A stretch of 41,517 nt of DNA. Source: a virus. The translations under genes were made by a program, and so were the position numbers. Positions 2,850-26,140 of the stretch are shown here, piece by piece. Within the stretch, counting starts at the first letter, position 1. Every line of letters starts with the position of its first letter. Under the pieces are notes generated by a model. It was not told the origin of the DNA and made no database searches. It was given only the letters and a program-made list of their open reading frames with translations. The stretch covers positions 1 through 41,517 of IMG/VR virus record IMGVR_UViG_3300049043_000026; one strand, written 5' to 3'.

Positions 2850-2891
2850 AGTCTAGGACTCCTGTATTTTGTCAAATTGGTTGGTTGTTGG

Positions 2892-3636
2892 TTAGCTTTC
2901 GAGGACGTAGGTCAAGAGCACGTCGATGTGGGTTGCGGTGGTCAGCGTGCCGTTGGCCGTGATGGTGATCGCGGTGTTGGCGTCGCACTGATTGAAAGAG
3001 GCACCGTCGGCCAGCACGCTGGAGTTGGCGGTCACACCAGCCAAAACGCGGGCGCTTTGGGTAAGCGCGGCAACCGTGTTGCTGACCAACTGCACCGCCG
3101 CTGCGGATTGAGTGCCGGTGATGCGAATTGCCGTTGCGCCAGCGGCGTTGCCGCCGATAGCGATCATCGAGGCGTCAACCAGCCGATAACGCCTGTTGGC
3201 GACCGCTGGAAGCAGCGTTGCACCAGCATTGACGTTGGCAGTGGTGACGCGGGTTCGCAGCGAGCGAACGACGCCGGGGTCTGCACCGTAATGCAAGACC
3301 TCGATGATATCGTTGTCGGCGGTGGCGGCTTCCAGTGCGACGCCGAAAGGAACGGTGCCGCTTGATCCGACCTTGCCAGCTGCGGCACAGTAGACCAAAG
3401 CACCCAAGCTGATCGCACCGTTGGCGACCACCTTGCGAGTGCCATGAGCACTGATCAAACGAACGCCGACCGGTTCGTCAACGAACGTGGCAGCGTTTTC
3501 AGTGGTTCCAAGTCCGACGTTGGTGGCTTCGGCAAGTGCCAAGCGACCGGTCGAAAGGTTGGTCACTCGAAGGTGCTGGCCAATTGCGGCTACCGGCGAG
3601 AAACTGCCGGACTGCGGATTCTACGTATTGAGACAT
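2892..3636 (-). CDS. Capsid decoration protein, DUF2190-like with extra C-terminal domain (frameshifted)
   Basis: About 247 residues. Residues ~1-115 look like the DUF2190 capsid decoration family: a short beta-barrel that starts with a conserved Gly-rich strand, has the GALVYCAAAGKV strand, and ends FGVALEAATADNDIIEV. Residues ~120-245 form a second, Ala/Thr-rich beta domain (ATAIRITGTQSAAAVQLVSN) not found in the minimal family. ATG at 3636 follows AAGGAA. The first five codons are in a different frame from the rest: deleting one base in TACGTAGAAT (3621-3626) gives a clean MSQYVNPQSGSFSP start. An alternative start is GTG at 3566, but that would cut off the conserved N-terminal strand. It lies between protease/scaffold and capsid, the standard place. 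Confidence 0.72.
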
Positions 3637-3669
3637 GTGCGTTTCCTTTGCGAAATGGTTTGTTGTTTG

Positions 3670-4197
3670 TTAGCTGTTGATTTCTTTGACAACGAGTTCC
3701 TGAAGACCAGGAAAATCACGATTCACCAGCTTTGCGGCCTGTGCCTTGTTTTTTCCCCGTCCCTTGGCGACATATTGATCGATCAAGTCGTTCCACTGCG
3801 ACTTTGCAGTCACAACTTGACCGACTGGACCTGATGGCTTGGCAACGGGTTTCAGGCCTGACTTGGCGCGAGCACCCGGAACAACGACAACCGAAGTGCT
3901 TTCCTCTTCGTCGTCTTCCTCTGGCGTGACAGGTCCAGGCTGCGATGGCATTTGCTCGGCGGCCTTGGCACGAAGTGCGACAGCCTCTTCCTGCATCTGG
4001 CACATCTTTTGTTCAGCTGCGGCCAATGCGGCCTTCAGCTGTTCGTTCTCCTGCTGCACGTCGGTCAGCAGTTTGTCGCCGACTTCGGCGTCGGTTAGTT
4101 CCGCCTCAAGTGCGGCGACAATGAAAGCAGGGTTGACGTTGCCGAAGCGAGCCTTAATTGACTTCGCAGTGGCGACGACTTTGGGGGCGCTGCTCAT
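3670..4197 (-). CDS. Nested capsid scaffold protein (internal start)
   Basis: An in-frame ATG at 4197 within the protease gene is preceded by AAGGAG with 9 bases between, a much stronger start signal than expected by chance, and it falls exactly at the boundary between protease and coiled-coil regions. The product would be 175 residues (MSSAPKVVATAK onward) containing all of the coiled coil, the acidic stretch and the basic C-terminal tail that in other phages binds the capsid protein. This is the lambda gpC/Nu3 arrangement. Use of this start has not been shown and rests on the SD and on the analogy. Confidence 0.65.
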   Translation of the reverse strand: MSSAPKVVATAKSIKARFGNVNPAFIVAALEAELTDAEVGDKLLTDVQQENEQLKAALAAAEQKMCQMQEEAVALRAKAAEQMPSQPGPVTPEEDDEEESTSVVVVPGARAKSGLKPVAKPSGPVGQVVTAKSQWNDLIDQYVAKGRGKNKAQAAKLVNRDFPGLQELVVKEINS

Positions 4198-4807
4198 ATG
4201 GTTTTTCTCCTTCTGGTCAGCAAGTTCGCCGCTCGGATGGTCGCTTGCGTTCAGCGACGAAAACACCCGCTCCGGCATGTTTCCTTTGAATCTGGCAACG
4301 GCCACGCTTGGACGGGCCTGCGGAAGCACGGAATCAACGAGGCCGCTGGCAACTGCATCCGCCGCGCCCAGCCAGGTTTCCGCCGCCATCATCTGTTCGA
4401 TTTCCTGCGTGCTCTTGCCAGTCTTCTTGGCGTAGGCCGCGATCATGTTTTGCTTCAGTCCGGCCAGCATGTCGGCTTGCTTGGACAGCTCGGCATCGTC
4501 GCCTTCCACCTGAGTCCAAGGGTTGTGCAACATCAGATAGCCGTTCTCGGTGATTTCTACTCGGTCGGCGGCCATCGCGATCAGACTGGCAATGCTGAAC
4601 GCACTCGACTCGACCACCGCACGAGTTGGACCAGACCACGCCTTGATGGCGTCGTAAATGCCGAACCCGTCGAACACGCTGCCGCCTTCGCTGTCGATGC
4701 GGATGACGAGTTCCTGCGACGGGTCGCACGATGCCAACTGGTTTTTGAATGCCTGCGCTGGTTACGCCGGGATACCCGATCGCTCCGTATAGCTTGATCT
4801 CATTCAT
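3670..4807 (-). CDS. Head maturation protease fused to scaffold, ClpP/S49-like (frameshifted)
   Basis: About 378 residues. The N-terminal half is a ClpP-like serine protease: the RIDSEGGSVFDG strand, a catalytic Ser in SSAFSIASLIAMAAD and a catalytic His in YLMLHNPW. The C-terminal half has the assembly-scaffold look: a long Gln/Glu/Ala coiled coil (DVQQENEQLKAALAAAEQK), an acidic EEDDEEES stretch and a basic tail. It cleaves scaffold and probably itself during capsid maturation. ATG at 4807 overlaps the portal stop by eight bases. The frame changes at about 4755-4762; removing one base gives GVTAQAFKNQL, matching the family strand order. An internal, strongly preceded ATG makes a separate scaffold protein (next entry). 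Together with the portal and capsid genes it forms the head module. Confidence 0.82.
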
Positions 4808-6618
4808 TGGTCAGCTGCTCCTGCGGCGTGTCCACCGTGCCATCGCTGGCGTCTTCGATGTAGATGTCTGCCTTTGCTGATGAAACTCCAAGGCTGTCAA
4901 GTTCCAGCCGCGCGCGGCGTTCGCTAAATGTTCCGTTGGCAAACTTTTGCAAAACGTCGTCGATTGCTTTTTGATTGTTCTGCCAGTTCTTCCTGCCAAC
5001 GCCGACCATTTCTCCGGTTGGTGGCGGCTGGCTGGAGTCAGAACCTGATGCGGCCGCAGCTGCGGCGAGTGCCTGCGGATCTTGCATGGTCATCTGAATC
5101 CCGGCAGGCATTGGCAAGCTAATCAGCTCGCGCCAGTGGACCGGTGCGTTATCGACGAACACGGCATTGATTTCCGCCGCCTTTCGTTTGGCTTGGATGA
5201 TGGCGTAGCTCATGTCACCGACAATTTCGTCGGCGATTTCTTCCCAGTCGCGGCCACCCTTGGCGTGCAATCTGCGAGGACTGGTCAATGCGTTTTGAAT
5301 CCGCAGGGCGTCGCCCTGGGCATCGGCCACCGGGTCAATGTACTGCCAAGTCGGCGCGTTCCACCGATGGCCAAAAATGTCGATGCCGTCCTGACGTGCC
5401 GCGACTCGCAGGGTGCGGTCTTCGGCAATCCACTGCCGAACCTTCCACTCGTAGACGGGTTGGTGTAGACGATTCAGTAGATTCTGCTGGTTGGCCTTGA
5501 ATCCCTTACGGGCTTCGTCAACCGCGCCACGCCAGCCGCTGAAGTTCGTTTCACTACCGTCCATCAGCACCAGACACAGCGGCAGGCCAAGGTTCACGCC
5601 GATGATTTGCAGCATCAACTTGACGTGATCGAAAAACTCAGCGTTCGGCACGTTCGGGCTAAAGCCTTGCAGTTCCTCGCCTTCGGCACCGATGATTTCC
5701 ATGCCGGGACCGATGTTTTCGATGTAGCGGGTTCCCTGTCCGGTCTGTTCGACCTGCGGCAGTCCGTAGCCGTCTGTCGATGGCAGCGGACCGCCGCCTG
5801 CGATGGCGTTGCGTTTGCGGAAGATGGCAAAACAACTGACGACCTGCTGCTGTACCAGCTTCGCAAAGTTGATGTCCTCAAACATTCCGGCGACGCTGAA
5901 GATCGGAGCCAGTGCCGTGACGCCGCGAGTCTGGTTGGTTCGCTTTGGGTTGTAGACGTGGAACAGGACGCGGTTGCCCTCCTCGTCTCGAACGTCAATT
6001 GGTACGGCCGTTTCCTTGAGGTTGGCAATAACGGACATCACGCCTTCACGCTTGTCTGCCGTGTACCAATACTGCGTTCGCTTGCCGTACTGGTCACGGG
6101 TGACGCCGAGAAACGTGTTTTCCTGCGGCGTAAGCGTTTGAATGCTGTGAGCTTCGATTAGCTGCAACTGTCCGCCAGCCGTTCCAAGTGCGACGATGTC
6201 GCCGTCCAGCAGCATCGACCGCATCACGTGCCGCTCGATGTCCTGAAACGTGAACTCGCCAGCCATGTCGCAGGCGTCGGGGCTGCTGGTCCAGTCTTGC
6301 CACCGCTGCCAGAGATCGAGGTCTAGCTGGCTGTCGCCGGTTCGCACGTCGAGCGTGAAACCGTCTTGCACAATATTGGCAACTGCCCGGTCGATGGTCT
6401 GCCCAACGATGGCGTCGTTGCGGTCCATGTCTCGAGCTTTCTCGATGTCGCGGTAATAAAACTCCTCGGTGCGGTAATGAAAATCAGCACCGCCGCCGCG
6501 AGGAGCTAGTCCCGTGCCGCTTGCGAATGAACCGGCTTTCGCGGCTCATGTCATAGTCGGCACGGATCGTATCGAATTCCGTGGCGATGGTTTTTCGCTT
6601 GCGTGGTGAGGCGGTCAT
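4800..6618 (-). CDS. Portal protein, lambda family (frameshifted)
   Basis: About 605 residues: the dodecameric portal through which DNA enters and leaves the head. Family marks are the ARDMDRNDAIVGQTIDRAV segment near the N-terminus, a central beta/wing region, and the long stem/crown helical part with the GSETNFSGWRGAVDEARKGF block; the C-terminus ends in an acidic, Gln-rich tail. ATG at 6618 overlaps the stop of the preceding small gene as ATGA. The first 35 or so codons lie in another frame; removing one base at about 6511-6520 gives IRKRTGLAPRGGGADFHYR, the expected family N-terminus. Without correction the next frame would begin near DMDRND at 6428. It sits downstream of the terminase and upstream of the protease, the canonical order. 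Confidence 0.9.
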
Positions 6619-6899
6619 CGGAATCCGTGATTAACCGACAGGAAACGAACGCGAGACGCCGCTGCCGAAGCCGTGTCCTTGGCCGCAACGAACGACTGAG
6701 CCCGAGCCAGCATCTGCATCACCTCGGCCTTGGACCGGCTGAGGCTGCTGCCTTGATTGCTGGCGGCTGGCCGCGGCGATGATCATCCACCGCTTGGCCG
6801 CTGTGATAAACAGTTTGCGCGGGAAACGCTGTCCGTTTCCTCGAAGTCGGCGTAATCGATCAGGTCGTTTTCGACATCCGAAAGGTCGTAAGTGGTCAT
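6615..6899 (-). CDS. Small head protein at the gpW position (two frameshifts)
   Basis: Reconstructs to about 94 residues: MTTYDLSDVENDLIDYADF..., an AKLFITAAKRWMIIAAASS amphipathic helix, and SKAEVMQMLARAQSFVAAKD followed by SRVRFLSVNHGFR. Three frames each hold one part; one missing A near 6815 and one extra C near 6760-6770 restore a single frame. The codon composition and the ATGA overlap with the portal gene support reality. Lambda-like phages place gpW, a head-completion protein, exactly between the terminase and portal genes, and the length fits, but I do not see a gpW sequence signature. ATG at 6899 has no strong SD. Confidence 0.5.
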
Positions 6900-6972
6900 G
6901 TGCAAATAGTAACCAACTGAACGCCTGTCACTATCAAGAAAACCGCCTTACAAAATTGCGGATTTTCCGCAC

Positions 6973-7305
6973 TTAGTCGGCAAGCTGTTCCAGCAGCCAA
7001 AGAACGGCTTGGCCCATCGTTCGGCATGGGTAGCCGGAGTGCAGGATGTCGCCGCGTGATTCCAGCGCGTAGTAAAGACCATTAAGTGCCTGTTTTTGTT
7101 TGGCACTGATGTTGCGAATATCCATCCGCTTTACCTTGGACATATGCAGCGGCTTGCCCTTGTAAACTGGAACGCGGATCGTTTTCCACTCAATTTCCAG
7201 CGTCGGGTCTGACTTAACCTCTACAGCCGTGTCCGCGTGAACTTCAACCGCTGGCACTTCGTCCACTGTCGGCAGTTCGTTTTTCTTTGCTACTTGCTTC
7301 GCCAT
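6973..7305 (-). CDS. Hypothetical protein between terminase and portal
   Basis: 110 residues starting MAKQVAKKNELPTVDEV, with an acidic/Val-rich N-terminal third, then EIEWKTIRVPVYKGKPLHMS and an amphipathic C-terminal helix region (GQAVLWLLEQLAD). ATG at 7305 follows AAGGAAG and lies two bases from the terminase stop, so it belongs to the head operon. I recognise no family. The position would suit a small terminase-associated or head protein. It does not show the helix-turn-helix expected of a small terminase. Confidence 0.7.
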   Translation of the reverse strand: MAKQVAKKNELPTVDEVPAVEVHADTAVEVKSDPTLEIEWKTIRVPVYKGKPLHMSKVKRMDIRNISAKQKQALNGLYYALESRGDILHSGYPCRTMGQAVLWLLEQLAD

Positions 7306-7307
7306 GC

Positions 7308-9430
7308 TTACTTCCTTTGGGTTGCCACGAATGCCTGTCCATGCGGCGTGCTGGCGACAATGCCAGGACGATTCCGAACGGTCGGTTTGGTTTCTGATTT
7401 TGCGATTGCCTTTTGCATCGCCTCGGCGGTGACGCGGGGAATCAGCCGCACGCCAAGACAGCCCGCCGCCGCACAGGCCAGCGCGGTGGCGTCCAAATAG
7501 TGGTTGTTTTTGCTCAACTCTTTCCACTTACGGACGACGCCCTTTCCCGGAACAAACTGCTCCTCTCGCATCTCGGCCACGATGTGGTGGCTGAACGCCA
7601 AATGCCGCTTCTTGTCGTGTCCGACGTACAAACTCAGACTCCCGTCGTTCCACTGGTGAGCCTCGTTAAAGGTGGCCGTCAGGAATCGCTCCTGCAGCCA
7701 GCCTTTCCAGTGCTCGACGTCGATGATGTACAGCCAGATGCGCTCCTGCGGCTGATGGTTGGCAAAGACATGGTTAAACAGCCGCCTAGTCGGTGACTCC
7801 GTGCCCATGTGGAACTTGCTCGAGGCGTAGCCCTTGCTGGCTGCAAACGGCGTCCCGCCAACCCGGCGGATAAACTCATACACGGCCGGCGAATAGTCGC
7901 CAGAATCAACAAGGCAAAAGTCCGGCGGATTCTTGGCCATGATGTCGGTCCGCCACAGAAGCAGGCTTTGCAGCAACGCAATCTCGACGGCCTGTGCATC
8001 GGTCGCCGCCTGCATTCCTGGCGTTTCCATGACGCCGTAATCGATCACAACGCCGGTGGCATTGCCGAACCATGCGATCTTGGTCCAGTGGCTGTAGTAC
8101 TTGCCGAGGTCGAGGCCGACGGTGATCTTCAGGTCTTCCATCTTCGGCAGCTCGTGCTGCTCCAGGCCGCTGACACGGCTGGCGACTTTGTGGGCTGTGA
8201 GTCCCAGCGTCTCGGCCTGCTCCTCCTCAGGCGGTGCGTTTTGGATTTCCGTCAGGACGTAGTTCAGGCCGTTATCGGCAACGAGGTTGTAGATTGACTG
8301 CAGGCGCTGTGTTCGATGGCGACGCCTTCGCGGGTCACGGCCCGGCTGTACCGTTCGGGGTTCAGCACCTCGCTGCCGCGTTCCATGTCTTCTCGGTTTG
8401 CCAGATAAAACGCTGTGGCGTTCAGCCCGCATCCGTCGCCGCTGCGCTGGTCTTCCTGACGCTGGTCGATGTACTGCTGCCAAAGGTCCGCACGCTCCGG
8501 CCACTGCTTGACGCCGCTGTATCTGCGTCCGTTCCAGCTGGGTGCCTTCGCCTGGTTGGTCAGCTTTTCGGCAAGGCAGCGATTGTTTTGGATGGTACAC
8601 AGCACCACTCGACTGAGCCGCTTGCGGCCGTCGGCCAGTCCCGCCACGTCTCGGTTGAGGATCACGTCTCGCGTCTCGACTTGGTTCTCGTGGAACGCAC
8701 TTTCCCGCGTCTCTGGATCATCGACCAGCACAAAGTCGGGACGATTGCCGCGGATGTTGATGCCACGGATGGCACTGTCCATTCCGGCCCACGCCATGCA
8801 GACAGCCGAATAGATGCTTACGCCGCCTTCGTGCCAAGGTTCGCCCTTGATGGTTGGCGGCAGGCCGTCAATCTTCGGGAAGACGACCTGATTGCTCGAC
8901 CACTGGATTTCGGTTGGCTTGCCGTTGTGCGTCTGCTTGGCGGCTCGCTGCGGCGTTCCTTCGAGTGCCGCACATGGCACGCACAGTTCTGGGAAGTCCT
9001 CGATCAGCTTTTCATTGCTGTCAAAATGCCGCCGGATGTCGTCGAAGATGCGGCTGGCAAACGTGCCACTGGCCGCAATCACCAGCGGAAAACGGACTAG
9101 CCCGCGGCAGATCAGATAAACGATCATCGCCTTGGTGATTTCCGTCTTGCCGTCGCCGCGTGGTGCCGCAATCGCCTGGTCACCGCCGAACTCGGCCACG
9201 TCGACAATCAGCTGGATCATCTCCTTCTGGTAGTCCGCAAACGGCGACCAGAACCGATCGGGAAAGTAGTATTTCAAAAACGCCACCGGGTCGCCCAACA
9301 AAGCTCGCCGTCTCTGCAGGTCGACCGGTGGCGGAATGACAATGCTGTTTCGCTCCAGCTGTTTCCGCTCGGCGTAGCGTGCTTGCTTAGACTGCTGCTC
9401 GCCGCTGTATTTTTTCACTGTTTGAATCAC
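7308..9430 (-). CDS. terL: Terminase large subunit, GpA family (frameshifted)
   Basis: About 707 residues: the DNA-packaging motor. The ATPase domain has a Walker A-type loop APRGDGKTE at about residues 89-97 and a Walker B strand FVLVDDPE at about 233-240. The nuclease domain shows the three acidic positions expected of the GpA type: VGLDLGKYYSHW, FCLVDSGDYSPAVYEFIRR and HYLDATALACAAA. GTG start at 9430, preceded by AAGGCGAG; an upstream TAG limits other choices. The frame changes at about 8312 (GAACACAG); restoring one A gives GVAIETQRLQSIYNLV. GpA-type terminases cut at cos sites, so cohesive ends are expected. No recognisable small subunit lies beside it. Confidence 0.9.
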
Positions 9431-14959: not shown

Positions 14960-15157
14960 TTACTTGTTTTCGATTTTTCGATTGAGATCAGCCAAGCGTT
15001 CCCACAGTTTTTCGCGGTCTTTTCGGCATTCAACAACTTCAGCACGAACAGACTCGAACTGGGCCATGAACCATTTGCCCATGTATGCGACGACGCCGCC
15101 AAGCGTTGCAACAGCAGCTCCAAGGGCACCGATCAAACTCAAGTCAACGTTTTGCAT
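14960..15157 (-). CDS. Small membrane protein with coiled coil
   Basis: 65 residues: one transmembrane segment at residues 7-30 (SLIGALGAAVATLGGVVAYM) and a charged, heptad-like C-terminal half (RAEVVECRKDREKLWERLAD). The type fits a holin, antiholin or an i-spanin-like protein. ATG at 15157; SD weak (GGTGG). It sits directly downstream of the papain-like protease gene, with other membrane proteins a few genes upstream, which fits a lysis role. No signature assigns it. Confidence 0.6.
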   Translation of the reverse strand: MQNVDLSLIGALGAAVATLGGVVAYMGKWFMAQFESVRAEVVECRKDREKLWERLADLNRKIENK

Positions 15158-15167
15158 GTTGCCACCA

Positions 15168-17126
15168 TTAACTCAGCGGGTTTGGGTTTGGGAAACTCAT
15201 TCCTGCCGGTGCATAGCCGATCATCACCGTCCACTTGGCGGCCAGTGCCGCTTCGATGCTTTTGGTGGTCCACTCGTTGCAGCCATCGCCCGCCCAGCGA
15301 CTCGACCACGAGTTGATCATGACTACATTCCCGCCAGCTCGCCGCTGCCAGAAAACTGTGCTGTGTCCGCCGCCGCCGCGGCCGCTATAGCTGTCGACGA
15401 CTTCGCGGTCGCAGCTGCTATTCCAAGTCACTCCAATTTGGACGGGCAAGCCTTGGTCCAACCATTCGACCACTGAGTTCACGTCTTTGAATGGTTTGGT
15501 TGTCGCGAGTCGAAACAAGAACTTGCCCTGTGCGGTTGGCGGCATCGCCGGGTTATAACGGCCGGGATATGGCCAGTCCGATTCGAGGCACAGCCCGTGC
15601 TGAGTGGCCACGTATTGGCCGCCGCTGAGCGTGCTGCCCATGTCGCCGCGGATGCCGTCTTTTTGTTGGCTGAGGTAGTAGGCCGCGGCGCGGCTGAATG
15701 CCTGTTTACGGCCGGTTGCCAAGAAATAGCAGATGCTGAACACTTGCGCCAGCGCATGGCCTTGGCAATTATGCACGACCAGACCTTGTGCGACAAAGGA
15801 ATGGTCTTCGTCTACGGTGATGTCGTAAACTGGAAAATCGACAACTGCTTCACGTTCAATTGTCCGAATAGGTCGCAACTGCCCCTCGTCACACCAACTG
15901 TAGGCAGTTTTTGTGTTGACGGTTGCAAACGAATCAGCCGCATTGCCGACGAACTGAACAGCGTCACCGCTGTAAAGGTATGTTTGGTATGACGAAAACC
16001 GCTGATGGTCGCGTTTTTGAGTTATCGAACGGCCCGGTTTCATTCCAATTGAAACCAGAAGCGTTGACAGTTGCTGCGACAAAACACGGGACGCGGTTGC
16101 AGAATGCAGCTGTAACGAGCGAACACGATTGCCAGATGCTGCTACGCGCCCGGAATCGTATCTGGCACGACTCCCATCTCCGGCAAAATAACCGCGAGCA
16201 AATGCCAGTTTTTGTGAATTGCTGCCAGTCAGAATGAAAGGCGGAACGTGCTTTTTATTGCAAAATTTTCCACAAAGCTTTTCAAGCAATCGCCCAATCA
16301 CGCATCCTTGCAGGCGGATGTGTACAGCCTTTGACGCTTCACGCTTTTGGATGCTTACAGAAACGCCAATGCGTTCCGCGAAACTCACGATCTGTTCGTG
16401 TTCAAAATGCTCATCTTTGTGCATCGTGAATACAGCACGATTAACCAGCCCAGCACAGGTTCGATCTGTAGAGCCTTCCGCGACATACAGACCAAGCACA
16501 TAGCAGGTCAGATCGTCTGCAGGGATAAAACGAGGCACCCAGTCTGGCGAATGCTTTGCTGCAACCCTGTCGCCATCGCACTGCAAATTTTCTACATAAT
16601 CTGCAACGTCAATAAACTTCGCAGGCTGCTCTTGAACACCACGAGAAACAACCATCTTGTCGGTTTCAATCACTTCATCGGCACGCACCCAAAACAGGTT
16701 GCCGTCTCGCCATACACGGACGACATGATCCGCCGTCATTCTAATGGTGCCCCATCCTTTGACGAAAAACCGATACAGGTCACCGCTGTATAGCCGCTGC
16801 ATAGTGTCGATGACTTGACGTGTTCGTCCTTGGTGCGTCAGGACGCCATCGCCAAAACGAACGTCCTCGATGTTTTTCAGTTGCCCGTCGTGCATCGTGA
16901 CTTTGGTGCCAGCTGGAAAACAGGATCCCTGCTGACCTTGATCGAGGATGTCAACCACGCCTAGCGGGTCGGCTGCAGTGTTGAATTTTGGAAACGTGTC
17001 CTTGAACTGCTTCAGCACCAGCTCGGGCTCTTGACCGCGTGACTCCAGTTCGTCGTGCTGTTCCCAGTCGAATGCGTAGCCGAGTAGTCCCGGCGTCAAG
17101 TCGATCGGCCGTTTGTCTTTGCTCAC
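15168..17126 (-). CDS. Papain-like (C1) cysteine protease interrupted by an intein
   Basis: 652-residue precursor; GTG at 17126 with GGAGG seven bases upstream, overlapping the previous stop as GTGA. Residues 69-453 are an intein (separate entry), leaving a 267-residue protein after splicing. The mature protein reads DQGQQGS-C-QGHALAQ across the junction, the active-site strand of papain-type proteases. The spliced catalytic residues would be Cys69, His203 (GGGGHSTVFW) and Asn220 (INSWSSRWAGDG, the N-S-W pattern). The intein therefore splits the protein immediately before its nucleophile, and that nucleophile is also the +1 residue of splicing. No signal peptide is seen. The gene lies among exported and membrane proteins next to a holin candidate. 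Its role may be lysis or virion processing, as argued in the findings. Confidence 0.88.
   Translation of the reverse strand: MSKDKRPIDLTPGLLGYAFDWEQHDELESRGQEPELVLKQFKDTFPKFNTAADPLGVVDILDQGQQGSCFPAGTKVTMHDGQLKNIEDVRFGDGVLTHQGRTRQVIDTMQRLYSGDLYRFFVKGWGTIRMTADHVVRVWRDGNLFWVRADEVIETDKMVVSRGVQEQPAKFIDVADYVENLQCDGDRVAAKHSPDWVPRFIPADDLTCYVLGLYVAEGSTDRTCAGLVNRAVFTMHKDEHFEHEQIVSFAERIGVSVSIQKREASKAVHIRLQGCVIGRLLEKLCGKFCNKKHVPPFILTGSNSQKLAFARGYFAGDGSRARYDSGRVAASGNRVRSLQLHSATASRVLSQQLSTLLVSIGMKPGRSITQKRDHQRFSSYQTYLYSGDAVQFVGNAADSFATVNTKTAYSWCDEGQLRPIRTIEREAVVDFPVYDITVDEDHSFVAQGLVVHNCQGHALAQVFSICYFLATGRKQAFSRAAAYYLSQQKDGIRGDMGSTLSGGQYVATQHGLCLESDWPYPGRYNPAMPPTAQGKFLFRLATTKPFKDVNSVVEWLDQGLPVQIGVTWNSSCDREVVDSYSGRGGGGHSTVFWQRRAGGNVVMINSWSSRWAGDGCNEWTTKSIEAALAAKWTVMIGYAPAGMSFPNPNPLS
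15768..16922 (-). other. Intein with LAGLIDADG endonuclease (385 residues)
   Basis: Starts with Cys (CFPAGTKVTM, the N-terminal splicing block), has a block B-like TADHVVRV with Thr and His, two LAGLIDADG motifs (LGLYVAEGS at intein residues 143-151 and ARGYFAGDGS at 242-251), a block F-like VYDITVDEDHSFVAQG, and ends VVHN before an extein Cys. All splicing residues are present, so it should be active. It would be a homing element that inserts in the most conserved codons of the protease gene. The exact ends follow from the extein reading naturally as QGS-C-QGH once it is removed. Confidence 0.9.
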
Positions 17127-17893
17127 TTCACGGCCTCCAGTGCGGTCGCGATTTCCGTGAGTGCCCCGTACCAGTCTTGGCGGCTGAAGCTGCCACGCTT
17201 GGCCTGTTCGGCTTTGACTGCTGCGTCCAGTTTTGTTTTCCAGACGCCCCACTGTTCGCACTTGGCCTTGTCGACGCACTGCCTTGCGGCAACGGCTGTA
17301 TTGATGTCGGAAAGAATGCGTTCAATGCTCGCCAGACCGCCTTCGCCGAATAGCTGGCCAGCCTTGGCACGGTAGAGACCAGCCCACGCCTTGGCGTTTG
17401 CCGTGTCGCTAGGTGCATTCTCAAACGCCACCAGACCGACGCCGTACTCGTTCGGCACCACCGAGGGGTCAGGCGGTGGCGTTGGTTCCGGCGTCGGTCC
17501 AGGCGGAGGTGATGGCTTGCCTCCAATGGTGAACGTGACTTCCCGATCATCAATCCCACGCTCGGGGTCGAAGACGGTTATTTCCACTGAATACGAACCG
17601 GAACCGGCAAAAAGGTAAGTTGCCTCTGCGACCTTTTCCGGCTCGATGCGGTTGCCGTTTTGCTTGGCCTTCAGGCGAGTGAACTTGTAGTCCGTGCGAA
17701 TGTCCAGCAGCACGACATCGCTGACGGCAACGTTGCTGTCTTCGCCAACCAAAATCCGGTTGCCTTGGACTACTGGATTCGTCACGCCAAGCAGTGCCTT
17801 TTTGCGGGTCACCTGCGTCTCGACCTGTGCTGAGGCGATGCCGCAAAGCAGTAGGGTGACCGTAACGAAAATGGCGGCGAGTTTGTTACGCAT
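17123..17893 (-). CDS. Exported protein with PKD-like domain
   Basis: 256 residues. Residues 1-22 are a Sec signal peptide (basic start, LAAIFVTVTLLLCG core, cleavage after ASA). Next is a beta-sandwich of the PKD/Ig type (SYSVEITVFDPERGID), a Pro-rich linker (PPPGPTPEPTPPP), and a helical C-terminal domain containing CVDKAKCEQW, whose two cysteines might form a disulfide in the periplasm. ATG at 17893 overlaps the stop of the upstream gene (TGATG); its own stop overlaps the protease gene. It would act outside the cytoplasm and may help the neighbouring protease reach or bind its target, but that is a guess from gene order. Confidence 0.72.
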   Translation of the reverse strand: MRNKLAAIFVTVTLLLCGIASAQVETQVTRKKALLGVTNPVVQGNRILVGEDSNVAVSDVVLLDIRTDYKFTRLKAKQNGNRIEPEKVAEATYLFAGSGSYSVEITVFDPERGIDDREVTFTIGGKPSPPPGPTPEPTPPPDPSVVPNEYGVGLVAFENAPSDTANAKAWAGLYRAKAGQLFGEGGLASIERILSDINTAVAARQCVDKAKCEQWGVWKTKLDAAVKAEQAKRGSFSRQDWYGALTEIATALEAVK

Positions 17894-18216
17894 CAGATCA
17901 CCGAAAAGGCTTTTAGGATCAGCATCACAATCTCAATCACCTTTTCCCAGTCGACCTGCGACCAGTCGATCTTGGCCTGATGCGTCACCAACTTGTTGGC
18001 GACTTCTTCTTCGATAGTCGCCGCAAAGTCTGGATCTCGGCGGCATCGCTTGGCCAGCCATCGCAGGCCGACACGCCGAACCAGCGGTTCGTGTTTCGCC
18101 TTGTCTTCAAGCAGTTCAACGAACGTCATTCTTTCCCCGTGCAGCTCGGCCAGTACGCTGAGCGTGCTTATCACGACAATCGCCAGCAGGATAAACGCAA
18201 TCACTTCGCCGCTCAC
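17893..18216 (-). CDS. Small membrane-anchored protein
   Basis: 107 residues from GTG 18216, which overlaps the previous stop as GTGA. One N-terminal transmembrane segment (VIAFILLAIVVISTLSVLAE), then a charged helical region with a RWLAKRCRR basic patch and an amphipathic end (DWEKVIEIVMLILKAF). Topology N-out with a cytoplasmic tail, or the reverse, cannot be fixed. Likely a lysis or membrane-associated accessory protein because it is flanked by the holin candidate and an exported protein. No family recognised. Confidence 0.65.
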   Translation of the reverse strand: MSGEVIAFILLAIVVISTLSVLAELHGERMTFVELLEDKAKHEPLVRRVGLRWLAKRCRRDPDFAATIEEEVANKLVTHQAKIDWSQVDWEKVIEIVMLILKAFSVI

Positions 18217-18464
18217 TTGTGTGGTTCTCGGTACGTTGGCGCGACCTTGACCAGGAGCAGCGTTTCGAGAATCGGCCACTTCTTGGCAAGCAGGCCAATC
18301 ACTGCGTTTGCAAGTCCCGTCAACACGATGATGATGGCCGCTTGAATGGCCATCGACTGGTCTGGCGTGAATGCCACGCCGAGCTTGTTGAGCAGCCAAG
18401 CCGCCAGCCAAGCCCACAGGCTCGAGGCAGCAACCCGAATGAATCTTGTCACGATGTCAGACAT
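18213..18464 (-). CDS. Holin candidate, two transmembrane segments
   Basis: 83 residues from ATG 18464 (GGCGGG just upstream). Two hydrophobic helices are visible, AASSLWAWLAAWLLNKLG at about 12-29 and AIQAAIIIVLTGLANAVIGL at about 38-60, separated by a short polar turn, followed by a Lys/Trp-rich tail. This is the size and layout of a class II holin. A longer start at 18551 would add a polar, unconvincing N-terminus. It lies in a block of exported proteins. No sequence-level holin family is claimed. Confidence 0.55.
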   Translation of the reverse strand: MSDIVTRFIRVAASSLWAWLAAWLLNKLGVAFTPDQSMAIQAAIIIVLTGLANAVIGLLAKKWPILETLLLVKVAPTYREPHK

Positions 18465-18675
18465 AATCCCGCCAGTTCCTTCGATTGTGTGGTTCCCAGT
18501 ACTTTTCGGCGTAATAGCCACGCATCCACGCCACTCGCCTCGTGTTGCCACCCTGTCCCTTTTCGTGCGGACAATCCTGCGGCAACTGTCCGAGGTGGTA
18601 AGCCTTGCGGCCGTCCTTCTCGTCGGACTCGTACAATACCAGCGGGCTGTCTTCCCTGACCTTGTTGGTGGCCAT
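18457..18675 (-). CDS. Rmf/CrpP-like small basic protein
   Basis: 72 residues from the second of two adjacent ATGs (18675), five bases after GGGAGG. It contains G-R-K-A-Y-H-L-G, then L-P-Q-D-C-P and R-R-V-A-W-M-R-G-Y-Y-A, the spacing A/G...CP...R..W..GY..A seen in ribosome modulation factor (Rmf) and the related CrpP proteins. Rmf dimerises ribosomes into an inactive form. A phage copy could slow host translation at lysis or during lysogeny, but such a role has not been shown. The match is short, so this is tentative. Confidence 0.5.
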   Translation of the reverse strand: MATNKVREDSPLVLYESDEKDGRKAYHLGQLPQDCPHEKGQGGNTRRVAWMRGYYAEKYWEPHNRRNWRDYV

Positions 18676-18697
18676 CATGACCTCCCGCTGGCTTATC

Positions 18698-19364
18698 TCA
18701 TCGACGCAGCAGCCGCTTGATGGCTGCTACGCTGCCACAGCGAATTGGGGCCGTGACCGAGTGGACGGTGCCAGCCGCGCTTTTCAGCTTTGTTCGGCAC
18801 CAGACTGAACCGCCCGAAATAACCCCGACCACCTTGCCAGCGGCATTAACAACTGGCCCGCCCGAATCGCCAGGCACTGCAAAACTAAACAGGATGGACG
18901 ACTGCTCGCCGACAGCCGCCACTTTGCTTTTGAAACATCTAAGGGCCTGACCGCCACCGAAGCCGCAGACCTTGACCTCGTCACCTTCGGCCACGTCATC
19001 GGCCACTTCCAGCACGCTGCAGCCTTCCGGCGTGTCGCACTGGACGGTGGCAACGTCGGCGTCTCGGTTAAACCGGCGAATGATGCCACGCTTGGCACTG
19101 CCATCGTGAAAGCTCACGGTCAGCGTCTGATTACCGTCAACCACATGAGCCGCTGTTAGCACTTCGGGCTTCTGCTCGCCACGAATCACGCAGCCGGTGC
19201 CAGTGCCGCCGTTCTGGTCGCCGCGTACGATGACCACGCTGGTTTCGATTCCAGCTGGCTCGACAAATTCCCACAAACCGCTATCAACGCCGACCTGTGC
19301 AGCAGCAGGCTGCACCAAAGAAAAGGGACACCAAAGCAAAAACAGATAGCTTGGCGAGATTCAC
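18698..19364 (-). CDS. Secreted trypsin/HtrA-like serine protease (frameshifted)
   Basis: About 221 residues. Catalytic triad visible: His in LTAAHVVDG, Asp in DADVATVQ, Ser in VPGDSGGPVV. GTG at 19364 with AAAGGCAGG upstream opens a signal peptide frame (NLAKLSVFALVS); dropping one T in a run at 19321-19324 joins it to LVQPAAAQVG, a perfect signal peptide ending AAA. The later part of the protein is intact in one frame. It would degrade or process proteins in the periplasm or outside the cell. Several cysteines could form disulfides. A structured leader precedes it. Confidence 0.82.
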
Positions 19365-21012: not shown

Positions 21013-21452
21013 CACGCCCTCCATCCATGCGTTCGCGCCCATTCGGCCAGCAGCAAGCTGTCCGCAATTCGGTGCGTGACCTTGATGAACGGCCAACGCC
21101 GCTGGGCCTCGGCCTTGGTGCGGTTTTTGTCGCCGCCAGACATGCAGCCCATGTCCTTCTGCCACTTCTGCGGTCTGACCAGCAGATATGGCACCTCGTT
21201 GGCGTCAAGAATGCCCAGGACATGCCCGAAGCTCTGCCCGAAGGTAAACGCCGACTTCACACCCATCTGCGGCGAGCTGTGTACGTGTTCAAGCACGGCC
21301 TTAGCGCGGAACAGGTCGAACTGATGAAACCAATCCGCCACGTCCTTGCCAGTGCCGTCCAGCGGGCAGCTGCGGCCGTCCCAAGGCGTCCCGTCGTCCC
21401 AGATGGCAGACACGCTGCCGCTCTTGCCGGGGTCAATGCCGAAGTAGATCAT
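21012..21452 (-). CDS. RuvC-like Holliday junction resolvase/nuclease
   Basis: 146 residues from ATG 21452 (SD GGAGG, 5 bases). RNase H-fold acidic residues are visible: YFGIDPGKSGSVS (first Asp), AVLEHVHSS (Glu), and HRIADSLLLAEWA (last Asp), as in the RuvC family of phage crossover-junction endonucleases. These resolve branched replication/recombination intermediates before packaging. It overlaps the end of the methyltransferase gene by 20 bases and its own stop overlaps the O-like gene. Activity depends on all acids being in place, which appears so. Confidence 0.75.
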   Translation of the reverse strand: MIYFGIDPGKSGSVSAIWDDGTPWDGRSCPLDGTGKDVADWFHQFDLFRAKAVLEHVHSSPQMGVKSAFTFGQSFGHVLGILDANEVPYLLVRPQKWQKDMGCMSGGDKNRTKAEAQRRWPFIKVTHRIADSLLLAEWARTHGWRA

Positions 21453-22552
21453 GCTCGCCTCCAATCCGTTCTAATAGAATCCTGCCGACTACTTCCGCGA
21501 CTTGCGGGACGATTGCGTTTCCGAGGCATCTAAGCTTGTCGACCCTGTTTGGGATTCCATTTGCAACTCGCCCGGCAAATCGCACCAGTCCACCGGAAAC
21601 CCCATCAACCAACTCACCCACTTCGGGTTCAACTGCCCACCAATCTGACTGGAAGGTCCACCCTGAACGACAGTTGTTAGGCTTTTTTGTGTTCCCTTTT
21701 TTCCGTTGTTGCCGTTTTGAAATCCCTGACGTTCCTCTGTTCCCGTTGGTGTCGGCCACATCGTTTTCGACACAGCCCATCCTAGCTTGTTTGGCCTTTT
21801 CCGTCCGTCTCCACTGCAATTCAACTTCACGTCGTTGCTCGCGTTTGCTGCGTTTGGCGTCGGCCACATCGCCCGCTTCACCGCAGTCGTCAGCGTTCGC
21901 CGCGGCCCTGTGCCTTCCAACTGGACGTTCCGTCCGCCATTGCATCGGCTGCCCTGCCTTGGTCGTTCTCCGACGCCCGTGGCGTTGGCCAATACGCCGC
22001 CTCCGCTGGATTCGGTGTCCTGCCTTTCCTGAATGATTCGCTTCGCACTCGCATCGTCGCTGCCGGCGTTCCGATGATTGATTGCGATGACGAACACCCT
22101 GTCCCTGATATGCGGTGCACCAACGGCGGCAGCCGGTATGCAATGCCACTCCGCATCAAACCCGATCTCGGCCAGCGTCCCAAGTACTCGGTCCAGCCCT
22201 CTAGTAGCAGCCCTGCCACGTTCTCCAGCACAACCGCTCTCGGTCGTAGTTCGCGAACCAAGCGAATGGCCTCAAAGAACAATCCGCTCCGTTCTCCATC
22301 AAGTCCAGCCCCTTTCCCGGCATAGGAAATATCCTGACAGGGGAATCCGCCGCAGATGACATCGACTGGCTCAAGGTTGTGCCGTCCGCACTGTTTGATA
22401 TCCCGCTGGCGGTGAACGTCTGGCCAATGTCGCTCAAGGATTCTGGTTGCGTACTCATCGATCTCCACCTGCCATTTGCACTGCATGCCGCAGCGTTCAA
22501 AACCAAGATCAAACCCACCGATTCCGGCAAACAAACTGCCGAACGTGATCAT
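21433..22552 (-). CDS. DNA (cytosine-5) methyltransferase (two frameshifts)
   Basis: About 373 residues. Catalytic-domain motifs: SLFAGIGGFDLG (AdoMet binding), GGFPCQDIS with the catalytic Cys, and VVLENVAGLL; the C-terminal motif X reads LRCLGNAIVPQV. Two frame changes lie in the variable part: a missing base near 21896 joins AQGRGE to TLTTAVKRA, and another near 21556-21575 joins FPVDW...GEL to GIPNRVDKL. Three WPTP repeats in the target-recognition region are typical of phage members. It probably protects phage DNA from host restriction. ATG at 22552 follows GGAGGCGAGG. Its end overlaps the RuvC-like gene. Confidence 0.85.
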
Positions 22553-22588
22553 CCTCGCCTCCGTGTTTCGGTCTGCTGTGAAAATGCC

Positions 22589-22603
22589 TGTTTCAGTGAA
22601 ACA
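22589..22603. promoter_or_regulatory. Perfect palindrome upstream of the cytosine methyltransferase
   Basis: TGTTTCA-G-TGAAACA, 7-bp arms around one base, 37 bases before the methyltransferase start codon. Size fits an operator for a dimeric DNA-binding protein. There is no evidence which protein binds; the 142-base gap between the two methyltransferase genes is otherwise featureless. Confidence 0.4.
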
Positions 22604-22694
22604 AATCCCCGCCCGGTTTAGGTTGTGGGTGGGGTTGCGTTCTTGGCACTGGAGAATCGTTATGCAGATGCCTGTGTATTCGTTGTTATCCCGA

Positions 22695-23426
22695 TCAAAA
22701 CAGCACGCCTTGCGACAGTCGCTTGGCGGCTGCTTCGCAATACGCTTCGTTAATCTCGATCCCTATGGCCTGGCGGCCTTCCAGTTTTGCCGCTACGAGC
22801 GTTGCACCTGTTCCCATAAATGGATCAAAAACAACGTCGCCCCAATGCGTCAACTGGCAAATCAAATACCGCATCAATTTCACTGGTTTTGCCGCAGGAT
22901 GTTGCTTTGATAATGATGGATCCACCCAGTACCTAAGAACCGCCGAATCTCTTGATACCCTCAAAGGCGCATTTCTAACTACCTGAATCAACTCCCATGT
23001 TTGCTTCCAGCACCGTTTAACATCTCCACCACCGCCAACTGCTGGTCCTTTATCCCAAACCAAATAAGACGACCATTCGCCGGGCCACGGTTTTTTTGGT
23101 GAACCAAAAACCAAAGTGCAGACTTGTTTTTCTTTTGCCCATTTAAGTACGTCTAGTCCGACATCTTGCGAATGGTCCCCAACAATTTCCAATTGCCACG
23201 CCTTTTTTGATCGACCGTATCTTCCGCCTTTTGAGTTATCACTTAATGAAATACCGTATGGCGGATCTGTAACAACTGCATCCACATTGCCAACGCTTTC
23301 CAAAACTTTTCGACAATCGGCGTTGTATATTGTGATTCCTCCGCTGCTGTAGTACGGCTCAAACGGCATCGGCTGGATAACAAACGGTTGCATCGAAGCA
23401 ACGGTCGACTGTTTTTCTGTTGTCAT
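22695..23426 (-). CDS. DNA N-methyltransferase (adenine N6 or cytosine N4)
   Basis: 243 residues. Has the catalytic DPPYG motif in DAVVTDPPYGISLSD and the AdoMet-binding VFDPFMGTGATLVAA near the C-terminus, so motif order is IV...I (beta/permuted type). An N-terminal ADCRKVLESV strand precedes. DPPY with this layout is found in both m6A and m4C enzymes, so the base is not settled. ATG at 23426 follows GGAG. Likely works with the cytosine enzyme to protect phage DNA or regulate transcription. Intact in one frame. Confidence 0.85.
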   Translation of the reverse strand: MTTEKQSTVASMQPFVIQPMPFEPYYSSGGITIYNADCRKVLESVGNVDAVVTDPPYGISLSDNSKGGRYGRSKKAWQLEIVGDHSQDVGLDVLKWAKEKQVCTLVFGSPKKPWPGEWSSYLVWDKGPAVGGGGDVKRCWKQTWELIQVVRNAPLRVSRDSAVLRYWVDPSLSKQHPAAKPVKLMRYLICQLTHWGDVVFDPFMGTGATLVAAKLEGRQAIGIEINEAYCEAAAKRLSQGVLF

Positions 23427-23468
23427 TGTTTTTCTCCGTTGCTCGATGAACCGTAGCGTTCGGTGGAC

Positions 23469-23681
23469 TTAGCTGCATCCGTGGAGAGAATCGAAATCGT
23501 CGCCATCGTCCACTCGTTTTGGCTTCTTAGTTTGCTTGTACTCGTCCACTGCGTTTTTCAACGCTTGCAACCGTCTTGCTTCGTGCAACTCAAGCGGAAA
23601 CGCCAATTTGATCGGGACGTTTTCGGCTACTGCAATTGCCGCGTTTATCAACTCAATTGTTGCTTGTGCATGATCTTTCAT
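23469..23681 (-). CDS. Small hypothetical protein
   Basis: 70 residues, helical (TIELINAAIAVAENVPIKL, HEARRLQALKNAVDEYK) with an acidic C-terminus (DDGDDFDSLHG). ATG at 23681 with AAGGCG ten bases upstream. It overlaps the next gene by 29 bases. Early small gene of unknown function. Confidence 0.55.
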   Translation of the reverse strand: MKDHAQATIELINAAIAVAENVPIKLAFPLELHEARRLQALKNAVDEYKQTKKPKRVDDGDDFDSLHGCS

Positions 23682-23865
23682 TTTTCATCGCCTTCTCAAA
23701 AAGACCTTCCAGAACTGCCACCAGCAACGCGATGTTGCTTCGTTCACTGGCATTCTCAATCGTTACACCGCACTGCAAACCGTATTTGCCATCCGGTTCA
23801 AAATTCACTATCAATGTCGCCCGCGCCGTATCCAATTCGTACCGAGCACGCTCCAACTGTTTCAC
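23653..23865 (-). CDS. Small hypothetical protein
   Basis: 70 residues from GTG 23865. Helix-strand-helix composition (RARYELDTARATLIVNFE, GVTIENASERSNIALLVAVL). Overlaps the 23469 gene and is followed by it. SD is weak (GAGA). No family recognised; probably one of the accessory early genes. Confidence 0.5.
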   Translation of the reverse strand: MKQLERARYELDTARATLIVNFEPDGKYGLQCGVTIENASERSNIALLVAVLEGLFEKAMKNERSCTSNN

Positions 23866-23905
23866 GTTCTCAACGATCGATTCAAACAGCAGACATCGCT
23901 GGCGG

Positions 23906-24145
23906 CTATTCCGTAGCCGGTTGGTGCAGATACTCGCCGTTCACCTTCGTCTCATCCGTCAACACCTCGCTCCAGCAGCTGGCCCACTGGACCGGCTGGC
24001 CGTCACGTTCCTCGATGCAGATGCTGCACTGCTGGCTGATGGTGTCGTAGGCAACATCGGCAATGTCCTCGTTTGACATGTCGATGCCGTCGGGGATCGT
24101 CACGGTGACGACGACGGGAAATTCAACTTCTACTTCACGTGCCAT
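23906..24145 (-). CDS. Small hypothetical protein
   Basis: 79 residues: a beta strand pair (VEFPVVVTVTIPDGIDM) followed by a helix and CSICIEERDG, ending polar. ATG at 24145 with a strong AAAGGAGG at proper spacing. Unknown family. Lies between RecT-side genes and the methyltransferase block. Confidence 0.6.
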   Translation of the reverse strand: MAREVEVEFPVVVTVTIPDGIDMSNEDIADVAYDTISQQCSICIEERDGQPVQWASCWSEVLTDETKVNGEYLHQPATE

Positions 24146-24156
24146 ACTGGCCTCCT

Positions 24157-24465
24157 TTAGTTAAATGCTTGCTCAAGTTTTTCAAGTCGTGCTTCAAGTG
24201 CTTCAATGCGACGGGTATTGGAAGCGATCATTCCGCCAACTCCCGCCCCGTTTGACGACCTGACAAAGCAGCGTGTTGGAACCTCAATGTTGCTGCAAGC
24301 GGTCTTGATATGTGTTGGCCTGGGCGACCAGCCAAGGTGCTTGCCCAACCACTCAACTGCGGATTGATAATCCTTGAATGGTTCATTTTTTTCGTTGATG
24401 TATTTTTCGATTTCCCTTGCCAACTGAATTGCCATTTTTTGATTTAAAAAACGCTGCTCTTTCAT
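24157..24465 (-). CDS. Putative DNA-binding small protein with coiled coil
   Basis: 102 residues from the third codon ATG at 24465, six bases after AGGAG (two nearer starts lie too close to the SD). Possible winged-helix N-terminal part (YQSAVEWLGKHLGWSPR), then a Cys/Arg-containing middle, and a C-terminal heptad-rich helix (NTRRIEALEARLEKLEQAF) that would dimerise. Probably a transcription regulator of early genes, but no family is recognised. Confidence 0.55.
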   Translation of the reverse strand: MKEQRFLNQKMAIQLAREIEKYINEKNEPFKDYQSAVEWLGKHLGWSPRPTHIKTACSNIEVPTRCFVRSSNGAGVGGMIASNTRRIEALEARLEKLEQAFN

Positions 24466-24563
24466 CACCATCTCCTAATTAAAAAAAATGCGACAGATGC
24501 CCAGCGCTGTCGCACCGCTTGGGTTCAACGCAGCCGCTGGTCGTTTCCCAGCTGCGGCAGGGA

Positions 24564-25346
24564 CTATTCTTGGGATTCGCTTTCAATCGCCGGTGCATCG
24601 ATCACTGGCGACGGTTGCCATTCGTTCAGGGTGGAAAGCTGCATCGCTGGACGTGCTGGCCGGAATTGTTCGTCGTCCTTGTCGAATGCGTCAGCCACTT
24701 CAGCCGACAACTTCAGCCACTTGCTAGCGCGGCGGAACACGGTCTTCTTTGCCATTTCGCTCCACCAGTCCTTCCACGGCCCGCTGCCACCAGCTCGGCT
24801 GGACTGTCGCACCTTCTCGACTTCCTCGACGCTCATCACTTCCGACTTCGTGCCGCCATCGTTAAATACAACGTGGCAGTAGACGGCGATGATCTTTCCG
24901 GCCTTGTCTGGCTTGGTTGCATCAGTTCGCAGGAAGTGCGGCGTGTGCGACTTCACCTCGCCAAGGCTGTAATTAAACAGGTCGCCTTCGTGAACAACGT
25001 CGGCGTGAATCGTGCGGACGCTGCCACTACGAAGCACTAGGTCGACGATGCCTTTGTAGTCAAGGATGAGCGTACACTGGTCGCCATACGGAATCAGATG
25101 GGCGTGCCGTCCGTCTGGCTCGAGGCCCCACTGGCTCAGCTGCAGCATGCAGTTGAGAAAACTTTCCGGCGTGCAGGTTGCCAGCTTCGGCGTCTTCATC
25201 AGCGCCGTGAGGCCCGTCCGCACCATTCGCTCCGGCGTGCAATGCTTGGGCAGCACCCTTGCCACTTCCTGCTTGAAGGCGTCGCTATTCAGATGGTCCT
25301 TGATGGCCATCTTGCCGCCTGCTGGTTTCGATAGAACTACGCTCAC
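24564..25346 (-). CDS. recT: RecT single-strand annealing protein
   Basis: 260 residues. RecT family marks include LKTP/PKLATCTPESFLNCMLQLSQWGLEPDGR near the middle, then HLIPYG-x-x-CTLILDYKGIVDLVLRSG, and KDWWSEMAKKTVFRRASKWL. It anneals complementary single strands resected by the neighbouring nuclease, giving phage recombination and possibly replication fork repair. GTG at 25346 has GGAGGTGAC upstream and overlaps the nuclease stop as GTGA. The C-terminus is acidic. Intact. Confidence 0.92.
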   Translation of the reverse strand: MSVVLSKPAGGKMAIKDHLNSDAFKQEVARVLPKHCTPERMVRTGLTALMKTPKLATCTPESFLNCMLQLSQWGLEPDGRHAHLIPYGDQCTLILDYKGIVDLVLRSGSVRTIHADVVHEGDLFNYSLGEVKSHTPHFLRTDATKPDKAGKIIAVYCHVVFNDGGTKSEVMSVEEVEKVRQSSRAGGSGPWKDWWSEMAKKTVFRRASKWLKLSAEVADAFDKDDEQFRPARPAMQLSTLNEWQPSPVIDAPAIESESQE

Positions 25347-26140
25347 AGTGTCACCTCCGTCAATTCACCCGCAAACTTGCGAACCAGCCACGGTGGTGCG
25401 GTTGCCACCTTGATTGGCCGGTCCAGATACTCTTCTAAAACAAAAGTCGAAATGTCCTCAACGGCGCGGTGCATCCGTGCCTCGCTGTTCAGCTCTTCCA
25501 TCAAGACCGTAATCTCCAAAGGAAAAATTTCGTGCCCGCCGCCAGACTGAATGCCGACGACCAGAATCTTTGGCCTCTGAATGTTTTCCACGGCTTCAAT
25601 GCCGTGCCGGTAAAACGCCAGGCGAATGTCGTAGTGCATGCCGATTGCCTGATTGATAAACTCTTCCTCGCTGGCCGCACTGGTCGTCTTCCAATCAATC
25701 AGCACGCCGTCGCTGAGCTGATCAACCTTGGCACGGCAGTCGATGCCGCTGCGGCTGTGCCGCCAGAACAGCTCACGCTCAACGTGGCCATTGCCAAGGA
25801 ACTTTCGGACTTGGCTGCAGGCCTGCAGATGCGTCCAGACTCGCTCCAGCCGGTGCCAGTCGGAATCGCTGACGATTTCCTTACCGGCCACGGACTCACG
25901 CCACGCCTTGCCTTCCTTGGTTCGTAGGTCCAGCCCTTCCGGTCGCCGCACGATGTCCAGGCGATCAGGTCCGCCCAGTTCGATCATGCTGTGGACCAGC
26001 GTGCCAAACTGCATCGCCGGCGTTGGTTCGTCCTTCGGCCAGTCGCCTTCGACGCAAGTGTGATGGAACGTGATCGGGTCTTTCAGGAACAGTGCCAGCT
26101 GGCTGCTGGATAGTTCGGGCCGGGAATGGTAGTCGGTCAT
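25343..26140 (-). CDS. RecE-like exonuclease (PD-(D/E)XK)
   Basis: 265 residues. Nuclease core signs: FGTLVHSMIELGG, a GIDCRAKVDQL strand supplying the acid, and GVLIDWKTT with the Asp-x-Lys pair. A C-terminal helical part follows. By pairing with RecT it should be the 5'-to-3' exonuclease of a RecET-type system (the RecE domain alone, without the long E. coli N-terminus). ATG at 26140; its stop overlaps recT. Confidence in the nuclease fold is good; the polarity is by analogy. Confidence 0.85.
   Translation of the reverse strand: MTDYHSRPELSSSQLALFLKDPITFHHTCVEGDWPKDEPTPAMQFGTLVHSMIELGGPDRLDIVRRPEGLDLRTKEGKAWRESVAGKEIVSDSDWHRLERVWTHLQACSQVRKFLGNGHVERELFWRHSRSGIDCRAKVDQLSDGVLIDWKTTSAASEEEFINQAIGMHYDIRLAFYRHGIEAVENIQRPKILVVGIQSGGGHEIFPLEITVLMEELNSEARMHRAVEDISTFVLEEYLDRPIKVATAPPWLVRKFAGELTEVTL

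Follow-up and report, generated by a model that had tools for sequence, protein, structure and literature searches.

Among phage exit systems, the holin-endolysin-spanin cassettes of tailed phages combine a compact block of small membrane proteins with a soluble enzyme that lacks a signal peptide, located by the structural genes. A cassette of the same build lies on the minus strand, at 14960-19364, of the virus record IMGVR_UViG_3300049043_000026 of IMG/VR (positions 1 to 41,517; this whole stretch of 41,517 bases, classed linear, is hereafter called the window), where it is flanked by recombination genes and the terminase. It differs from the canonical cassettes in that its enzymes are proteases, one of them a papain interrupted by an intein, in that no peptidoglycan hydrolase is found, and in that its spanin-like piece is a weak match only. 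Of the explanations considered, a part played by the cassette in lysis accounts best for these data, and it is put forward here with an evenly balanced confidence. A viral protease of the papain family acting late on host structure has a counterpart in the baculovirus V-cath, which has a role in host liquefaction; virus and host are unrelated, so that the likeness is an analogy only and no membership is claimed.

The closest described relatives of the papain-like protease are the xylellain-type bacterial C1A peptidases (MEROPS C1; structure 3ois), which share its fold and its Q-C-H-N catalytic set and are its best structural match. Enzymes of this type have been reported to be acquired by Myoviridae and Siphoviridae, the passage in question stating no function for them (PMC10380794). 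Identity is about 22%, and further differences are the coupling to an exported Ig/helical partner and, in the window copy, the intein at the catalytic cysteine. The window protein is encoded as a 652-aa precursor (15168-17126, minus strand, GTG start at 17126, with a GTGA overlap with the preceding gene); in the spliced protein, an extein of 267 aa, the catalytic set consists of Gln63, Cys69, His203 and Asn220, invariant in 16 homologues and likewise found in the spliced sequence of the window. Once the intein is removed in silico, Peptidase_C1 (PF00112) is matched with 24.3 bits against a curated cut-off of 20.7, which bears out the papain-like protease proposed in the initial annotation, and in an alignment the cysteine joined by splicing stands opposite the one in the active site of actinidin. 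The intein-free papain model of a relative (L084, predicted local distance difference test score, pLDDT, 82.8) has xylellain 3ois as best fold match, followed by cathepsins (1e-11 to 1e-8). Judged by catalytic set, Pfam score and the modelled fold of the relative, the window protease and its relatives belong to papain family C1A. A wall hydrolase of the NlpC/P60 or CHAP type was also considered; it is not favoured, for sequence and fold are those of C1A, and NLPC_P60 gave no match. The papain may cut wall peptides.

Inteins are commonly inserted near active sites (PMC3359363, PMC5050341), and the active-centre inteins of mycobacteriophage TerL, TOPRIM proteins and others share with the present one the class-1 type, the LAGLIDADG endonuclease and the insertion into a conserved catalytic motif; here, in contrast, the intein sits in a papain-family protease, whose own nucleophile is the +1 residue. 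The intein, overlooked in the initial annotation of this reading frame, spans 385 aa (15768-16922, minus strand) and matches the Pfam families Intein_splicing (44.8 bits, cut-off 35.8) and LAGLIDADG_3 (25.0, cut-off 22.5). It is located between Ser68 and the catalytic Cys69, with the junctions QGQQGS/CFPAGT and VVHN/CQGHA, and has the class-1 blocks, namely Cys1 in CFPAGT, block B as TADH, and the C-terminal VVHN followed by the +1 Cys. Its LAGLIDADG motifs retain their acidic residues, and both splicing and homing activity are predicted. Since the +1 nucleophile is at the same time that of the protease, the unspliced window precursor would, on mechanistic grounds, be inactive as a papain.

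A broad profile recovered 71 phage contigs with papain homologues, 69 of them with a full frame, and in all 69 the frame is uninterrupted (211-339 aa). This absence, together with a GC content at third codon positions of 0.48 in the intein as opposed to 0.71 in the extein, makes a mobile element the simplest reading, and the intein is best read as such; the idea of a conserved regulator of the family is ruled out by the same 69 homologues. A search of the viral collection brought up no close copy of the intein, and an intein in a papain-family host was not encountered in the papers searched, a literature search for which most subscription journals lay outside the scope. In the closest papain relative (L002, positions 2-646, 87% identity) the approach to the active site is strongly altered exactly around the intein site, NQQAQCACQGAAL replacing DQGQQGSCQGHAL, which is possibly a homing-resistant allele.

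The cassette is transcribed in the order trypsin-like, RMF-like (ribosome modulation factor), two-transmembrane holin-like, transmembrane plus C-tail-hydrophobic segments, exported Ig/PKD-like, papain-like and transmembrane/coiled-coil. From the holin-like gene through the papain gene every stop overlaps the following start, so that the block is translationally coupled. The first gene (18698-19364, minus strand) encodes an exported trypsin-like serine protease (Pfam Trypsin_2, 2.2e-18, 67.8 bits against a cut-off of 27.6) with the His-Asp-Ser motifs TAAHVV, DADVA and GDSGGP. Its body is open from 19339 (18698-19339), and its signal peptide, starting at about 19364, stands in a different frame; in the relatives the signal peptide is in frame, and the break of the window is not found there. 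The secreted trypsin-like protease of the initial annotation is thus confirmed, and the upper limit given there for the cassette, 19364, fits the start of this signal peptide; the contents of the cassette stand as well, with the gene frames disturbed by two breaks, at the trypsin start and in the transmembrane/C-tail pair.

The 73-aa RMF-like protein (18457-18678, minus strand; Pfam RMF 4.6e-4, under the curated cut-off) is kept in the cassettes of relatives at 54-70% identity; the papain-carrying phage G008 also has an RMF-like small protein, the Pfam matches being weak. Next come the membrane and exported proteins, recovered as previously described: two-segment membrane, exported PKD-like and two further small membrane proteins. 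The two-transmembrane holin-like protein (83 aa, 18213-18464, minus strand) matches phrog_10742 (1.4e-7), a family without assigned function, and is 71-80% identical in relatives, with a ratio of nonsynonymous to synonymous substitution rates (dN/dS) of about 0.15-0.22 in pairs with the window. The stop of its gene overlaps the start of the next, at 17893-18216 (minus strand), which comprises a small transmembrane segment (GTG 18216) and a protein of 78 aa (ATG 18129) whose C-terminus is hydrophobic; these are two overlapping genes in the relatives L008, L018 and L027, fused in the window by a frame break. On the far side of the papain gene lies a 65-aa transmembrane and coiled-coil protein of i-spanin- or XhlA-like architecture (14960-15157, minus strand), with weak matches to phrog_462 'lipoprotein' (6e-4) and phrog_739 'Rz-like spanin' (0.13), kept in relatives at 46-62% identity. 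A 656-aa virion-type protein (phrog_1645) is encoded downstream of the cassette.

Between the hydrophobic proteins and the papain stands the gene of the exported partner (17123-17893, minus strand), with a signal peptide, an Ig/PKD-like beta-sandwich (about 25-123), a proline linker and a C-terminal helical domain (about 150-253), as delimited in an AlphaFold2 model (pLDDT 79.9, predicted template modelling score 0.45). In a fold search with the whole-protein model, Ig-like matches cover residues 19-125 only and are generic (Z about 7-8), and no match was returned for the C-terminal helical part, the very part that remains conserved next to the papain down to about 30% identity. An inhibitor of the papain was considered for this protein: the Ig-like fold is compatible with it, yet the matches are generic, and the partner is exported whereas the papain has no signal peptide.

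About ten relatives keep the cassette gene for gene with its order unchanged, the identities being 50-80%, and pairwise dN/dS values of about 0.05-0.3 for the papain, partner, trypsin, holin-like and metalloprotease genes indicate purifying selection on its coding sequences. A recurring gene order with low dN/dS points to more than chance; the cassette evolves faster than the terminase, which keeps 95% identity in several of these pairs. Where the papain is 45-60% identical, the core is reduced to C-tail-hydrophobic protein, exported partner and papain, and in distant phages C-tail-hydrophobic proteins likewise stand ahead of the exported partner.

Further proteases accompany the cassette in the relatives. 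Directly after the transmembrane/coiled-coil gene, most close relatives encode a 170-aa zinc-metalloprotease-like protein, a candidate metzincin (L116:19226-19738, L008:3892-4404, L092-L094 and others), with the motif HEVGHFLG, a later His and a CIMN turn (Astacin, E 8e-4, under the cut-off), the copies compared being 91-96% identical. The window and L002 are without this gene, which was either lost from the window or never there. An exported thioredoxin-like protein follows the papain in planctomycete genomes and in phage G016, and in G013 a thioredoxin-trypsin fusion is encoded just upstream of the terminase; such proteins, by the papain or fused to trypsin, are found in planctomycete prophages, phages and a chromosome (L155:10354-11337, L157:10178-10723, L146:7500-8648, L137:10848-12572). 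In phage G008 (L124-L127), a Pfam match to the sulfhydryl oxidase family Evr1_Alr was observed.

That the window encodes no peptidoglycan hydrolase, as the initial annotation had it, was borne out by three kinds of search: none was found by Pfam among all major open reading frames (ORFs), by PHROGs among about 40 ORFs, or in six-frame searches with SLT, Amidase_2, NLPC_P60, M15_4, Phage_lysozyme and M23. A hidden endolysin, which by the reasoning of that annotation would speak against protease-based lysis, thus did not come to light in the window. Pooled Pfam screens of the papain-positive relatives G001, G006, G007 and G008 returned no wall hydrolase either, and the same holds for the papain-negative G012, G013 and G015; these screens covered ORFs of about 95-420 aa, larger ones being covered by six-frame searches only. 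Another relative without the papain cassette, G014, gave one M15_4 match (E 0.0015, under the cut-off), and the papain-negative phages gave one match to the permuted papains of Pfam C92 (2.8e-6), considered as a possible stand-in for the papain there, the source of which the six-frame search could not locate.

As to the host, portal relatives of 36-62% identity are found in metagenome-assembled genomes (MAGs) of Planctomycetaceae, Pirellulales, Phycisphaerae and other Planctomycetota, and in a few MAGs of other phyla. The binning of phage contigs into MAGs is weak evidence for a host; stronger evidence is L157, a prophage of a planctomycete genome that carries the papain module flanked by recombination and terminase genes. 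The window virus probably infects planctomycete bacteria. Most Planctomycetales lack peptidoglycan genes, and YTV wall proteins rich in cysteine are found in this order (PMC8567305); thioredoxin and proteases acting on a wall of disulfide-linked protein would fit. The 20 planctomycete terminase loci surveyed were too mixed to serve as a census of lysis genes, and the literature searched held no paper on planctomycete phage lysis.

Under the reading favoured here, the cassette would be a late, host-envelope-breaking module of temperate planctomycete phages. The holin-like, C-tail-hydrophobic and transmembrane/coiled-coil proteins would open or bridge membranes, and the papain, which has no signal peptide, would be released through the membrane lesion; papain and secreted trypsin-like protease, joined in most relatives by the zinc-metalloprotease-like protein, would then cleave envelope proteins and so lyse the cell, the exported Ig/helical partner acting with the papain in the periplasm. 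In the window phage only, papain activity would await splicing of the intein, the catalytic cysteine being its +1 nucleophile. Speaking for this reading are the tightly coupled and conserved block under purifying selection, its place by the recombination genes and the terminase, the zinc-metalloprotease-like and thioredoxin genes of relatives, the wall hydrolases beside very distant phage papains, the lack of known wall hydrolases in the window and in the screened relatives, and the planctomycete association. Given the frame breaks of the window, these functional conclusions rest on the relatives. The initial annotation went further and proposed lysis by proteolysis; what stands of it is the coupling of proteases of two to three classes with holin-like genes where no known hydrolase is found, and a mode of lysis by proteolysis only is unproven, distant papains being companions of hydrolases. 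That proteolysis replaces peptidoglycan hydrolysis is possible, unproven and rather doubtful. Equally tentative is the joint reading in which planctomycete phages, instead of using a peptidoglycan hydrolase, would break a wall made of protein with proteases from several catalytic classes, helped in some lineages by an exported thioredoxin that opens the disulfides of its cysteine-rich proteins, the key protease being here a self-splicing zymogen.

Several observations weigh against the lysis reading or narrow it. The tested planctomycete species have lysozyme-sensitive peptidoglycan sacculi (PMC4432640), so that the proteinaceous host envelope assumed in the initial annotation is in keeping with the gene losses and YTV proteins of the Planctomycetales and at odds with these sacculi. 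The lack of Pfam wall hydrolases is not specific to papain carriers: the papain-negative relatives share it, and it is therefore a trait of the wider group. One papain homologue (L155) sits on a chromosome with no obvious phage genes around it, and the frame breaks leave room for the window copy to be a decaying provirus. Finally, the papains of very distant phages occur together with a wall hydrolase, and the role of the papain may hence be accessory. Among 36 non-redundant phage papain loci, a wall hydrolase lies within 3.5 kb in 5 of the 12 most distant as opposed to none of the 24 closer ones, a comparison whose p value is biased since the hydrolase queries were picked by eye from the distant group. 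The very distant papains adjoining canonical wall hydrolases (L283, L287, L295, L298, L299, L300) have as securely identified neighbours a T7-lysozyme-type amidase, an Amidase_3 type, a PGRP-type amidase, an M15 endopeptidase and a GH25 lysozyme, and some distant loci have two-transmembrane holin-like genes nearby; these neighbours link phage papains as a family with lysis modules, in those phages as a companion of the hydrolase. The amidase of L298 also bears S-layer-homology-like sequence.

The same neighbours favour a reading in which the cassette does belong to a lysis module, with an endolysin from some unrecognised family, encoded elsewhere, cutting the wall and the proteases assisting, for example by removing S-layer or wall proteins. 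Lysozyme-sensitive sacculi and the roughly 20 window ORFs without any Pfam or PHROG assignment likewise speak for such an enzyme, yet none emerged from the Pfam, PHROG and six-frame searches of the window or from the screened relatives, and this reading is considered unlikely. If the proteases and the partner were instead prophage-expressed genes of lysogenic conversion or host interaction (envelope remodelling, phage exclusion, attack on competitors), the integrase of the window, the signal peptides of trypsin and partner, and the chromosomal homologue in L155 would all be accounted for; the shared strand and tight coupling with holin-like genes, the conserved position ahead of structural and terminase genes, and the very distant homologues in lysis cassettes would not, which makes it improbable. 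More improbable still is a virion-associated or morphogenetic role, as tail or entry proteases or maturation enzymes: the cassette adjoins structural genes (phrog_1645) and the zinc protease of the relatives lies between the cassette and tail-like genes, but the portal already has a ClpP-type head protease as its neighbour, the papain of G006 is followed by DNA-metabolism genes, and an exported trypsin with holin-like genes is unfitting.

What maintains the integrity of planctomycete cells is disputed, peptidoglycan being present in some and its synthesis genes missing from most Planctomycetales. The exit tools of their phages are an independent witness on this envelope, and the conserved cassette makes the question testable with few genes. 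If the proteases do lyse the cell, they would represent a type of phage exit undescribed in the papers searched and an enzyme source for opening planctomycete cells. An intein seated at a papain's catalytic cysteine would also serve as a clean natural system for studying how splicing gates a protease.

With regard to the rest of the genome, homologues of the two end genes of the window are adjacent in the relative G001 (42,119 bases), so that the record is near-complete and circularly permuted; a missing genome piece is thereby ruled out. Compared with intact homologues, frame breaks occur in the terminase (8264-8600, minus strand), in the trypsin signal peptide (about 19300) and in the transmembrane/C-tail pair (18129), and probably also in a C5-methyltransferase (21890-22149), which suggests indel errors or a provirus in early decay. 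Scans for promoters and terminators gave a signal no better than shuffles. The head genes (lambda-type portal, ClpP-type protease, major head protein, GpA terminase) occupy 1,968-9,430, and the recombination genes (RecT, exonuclease VIII) with DNA methyltransferases about 21,400-26,140. The integrase (31,946-33,139) is on the strand opposite to the cassette and is adjoined by a metallophosphoesterase (33539-34687, minus strand), a type of domain present in mycobacteriophage excision factors (recombination directionality factors; PMC5050341).

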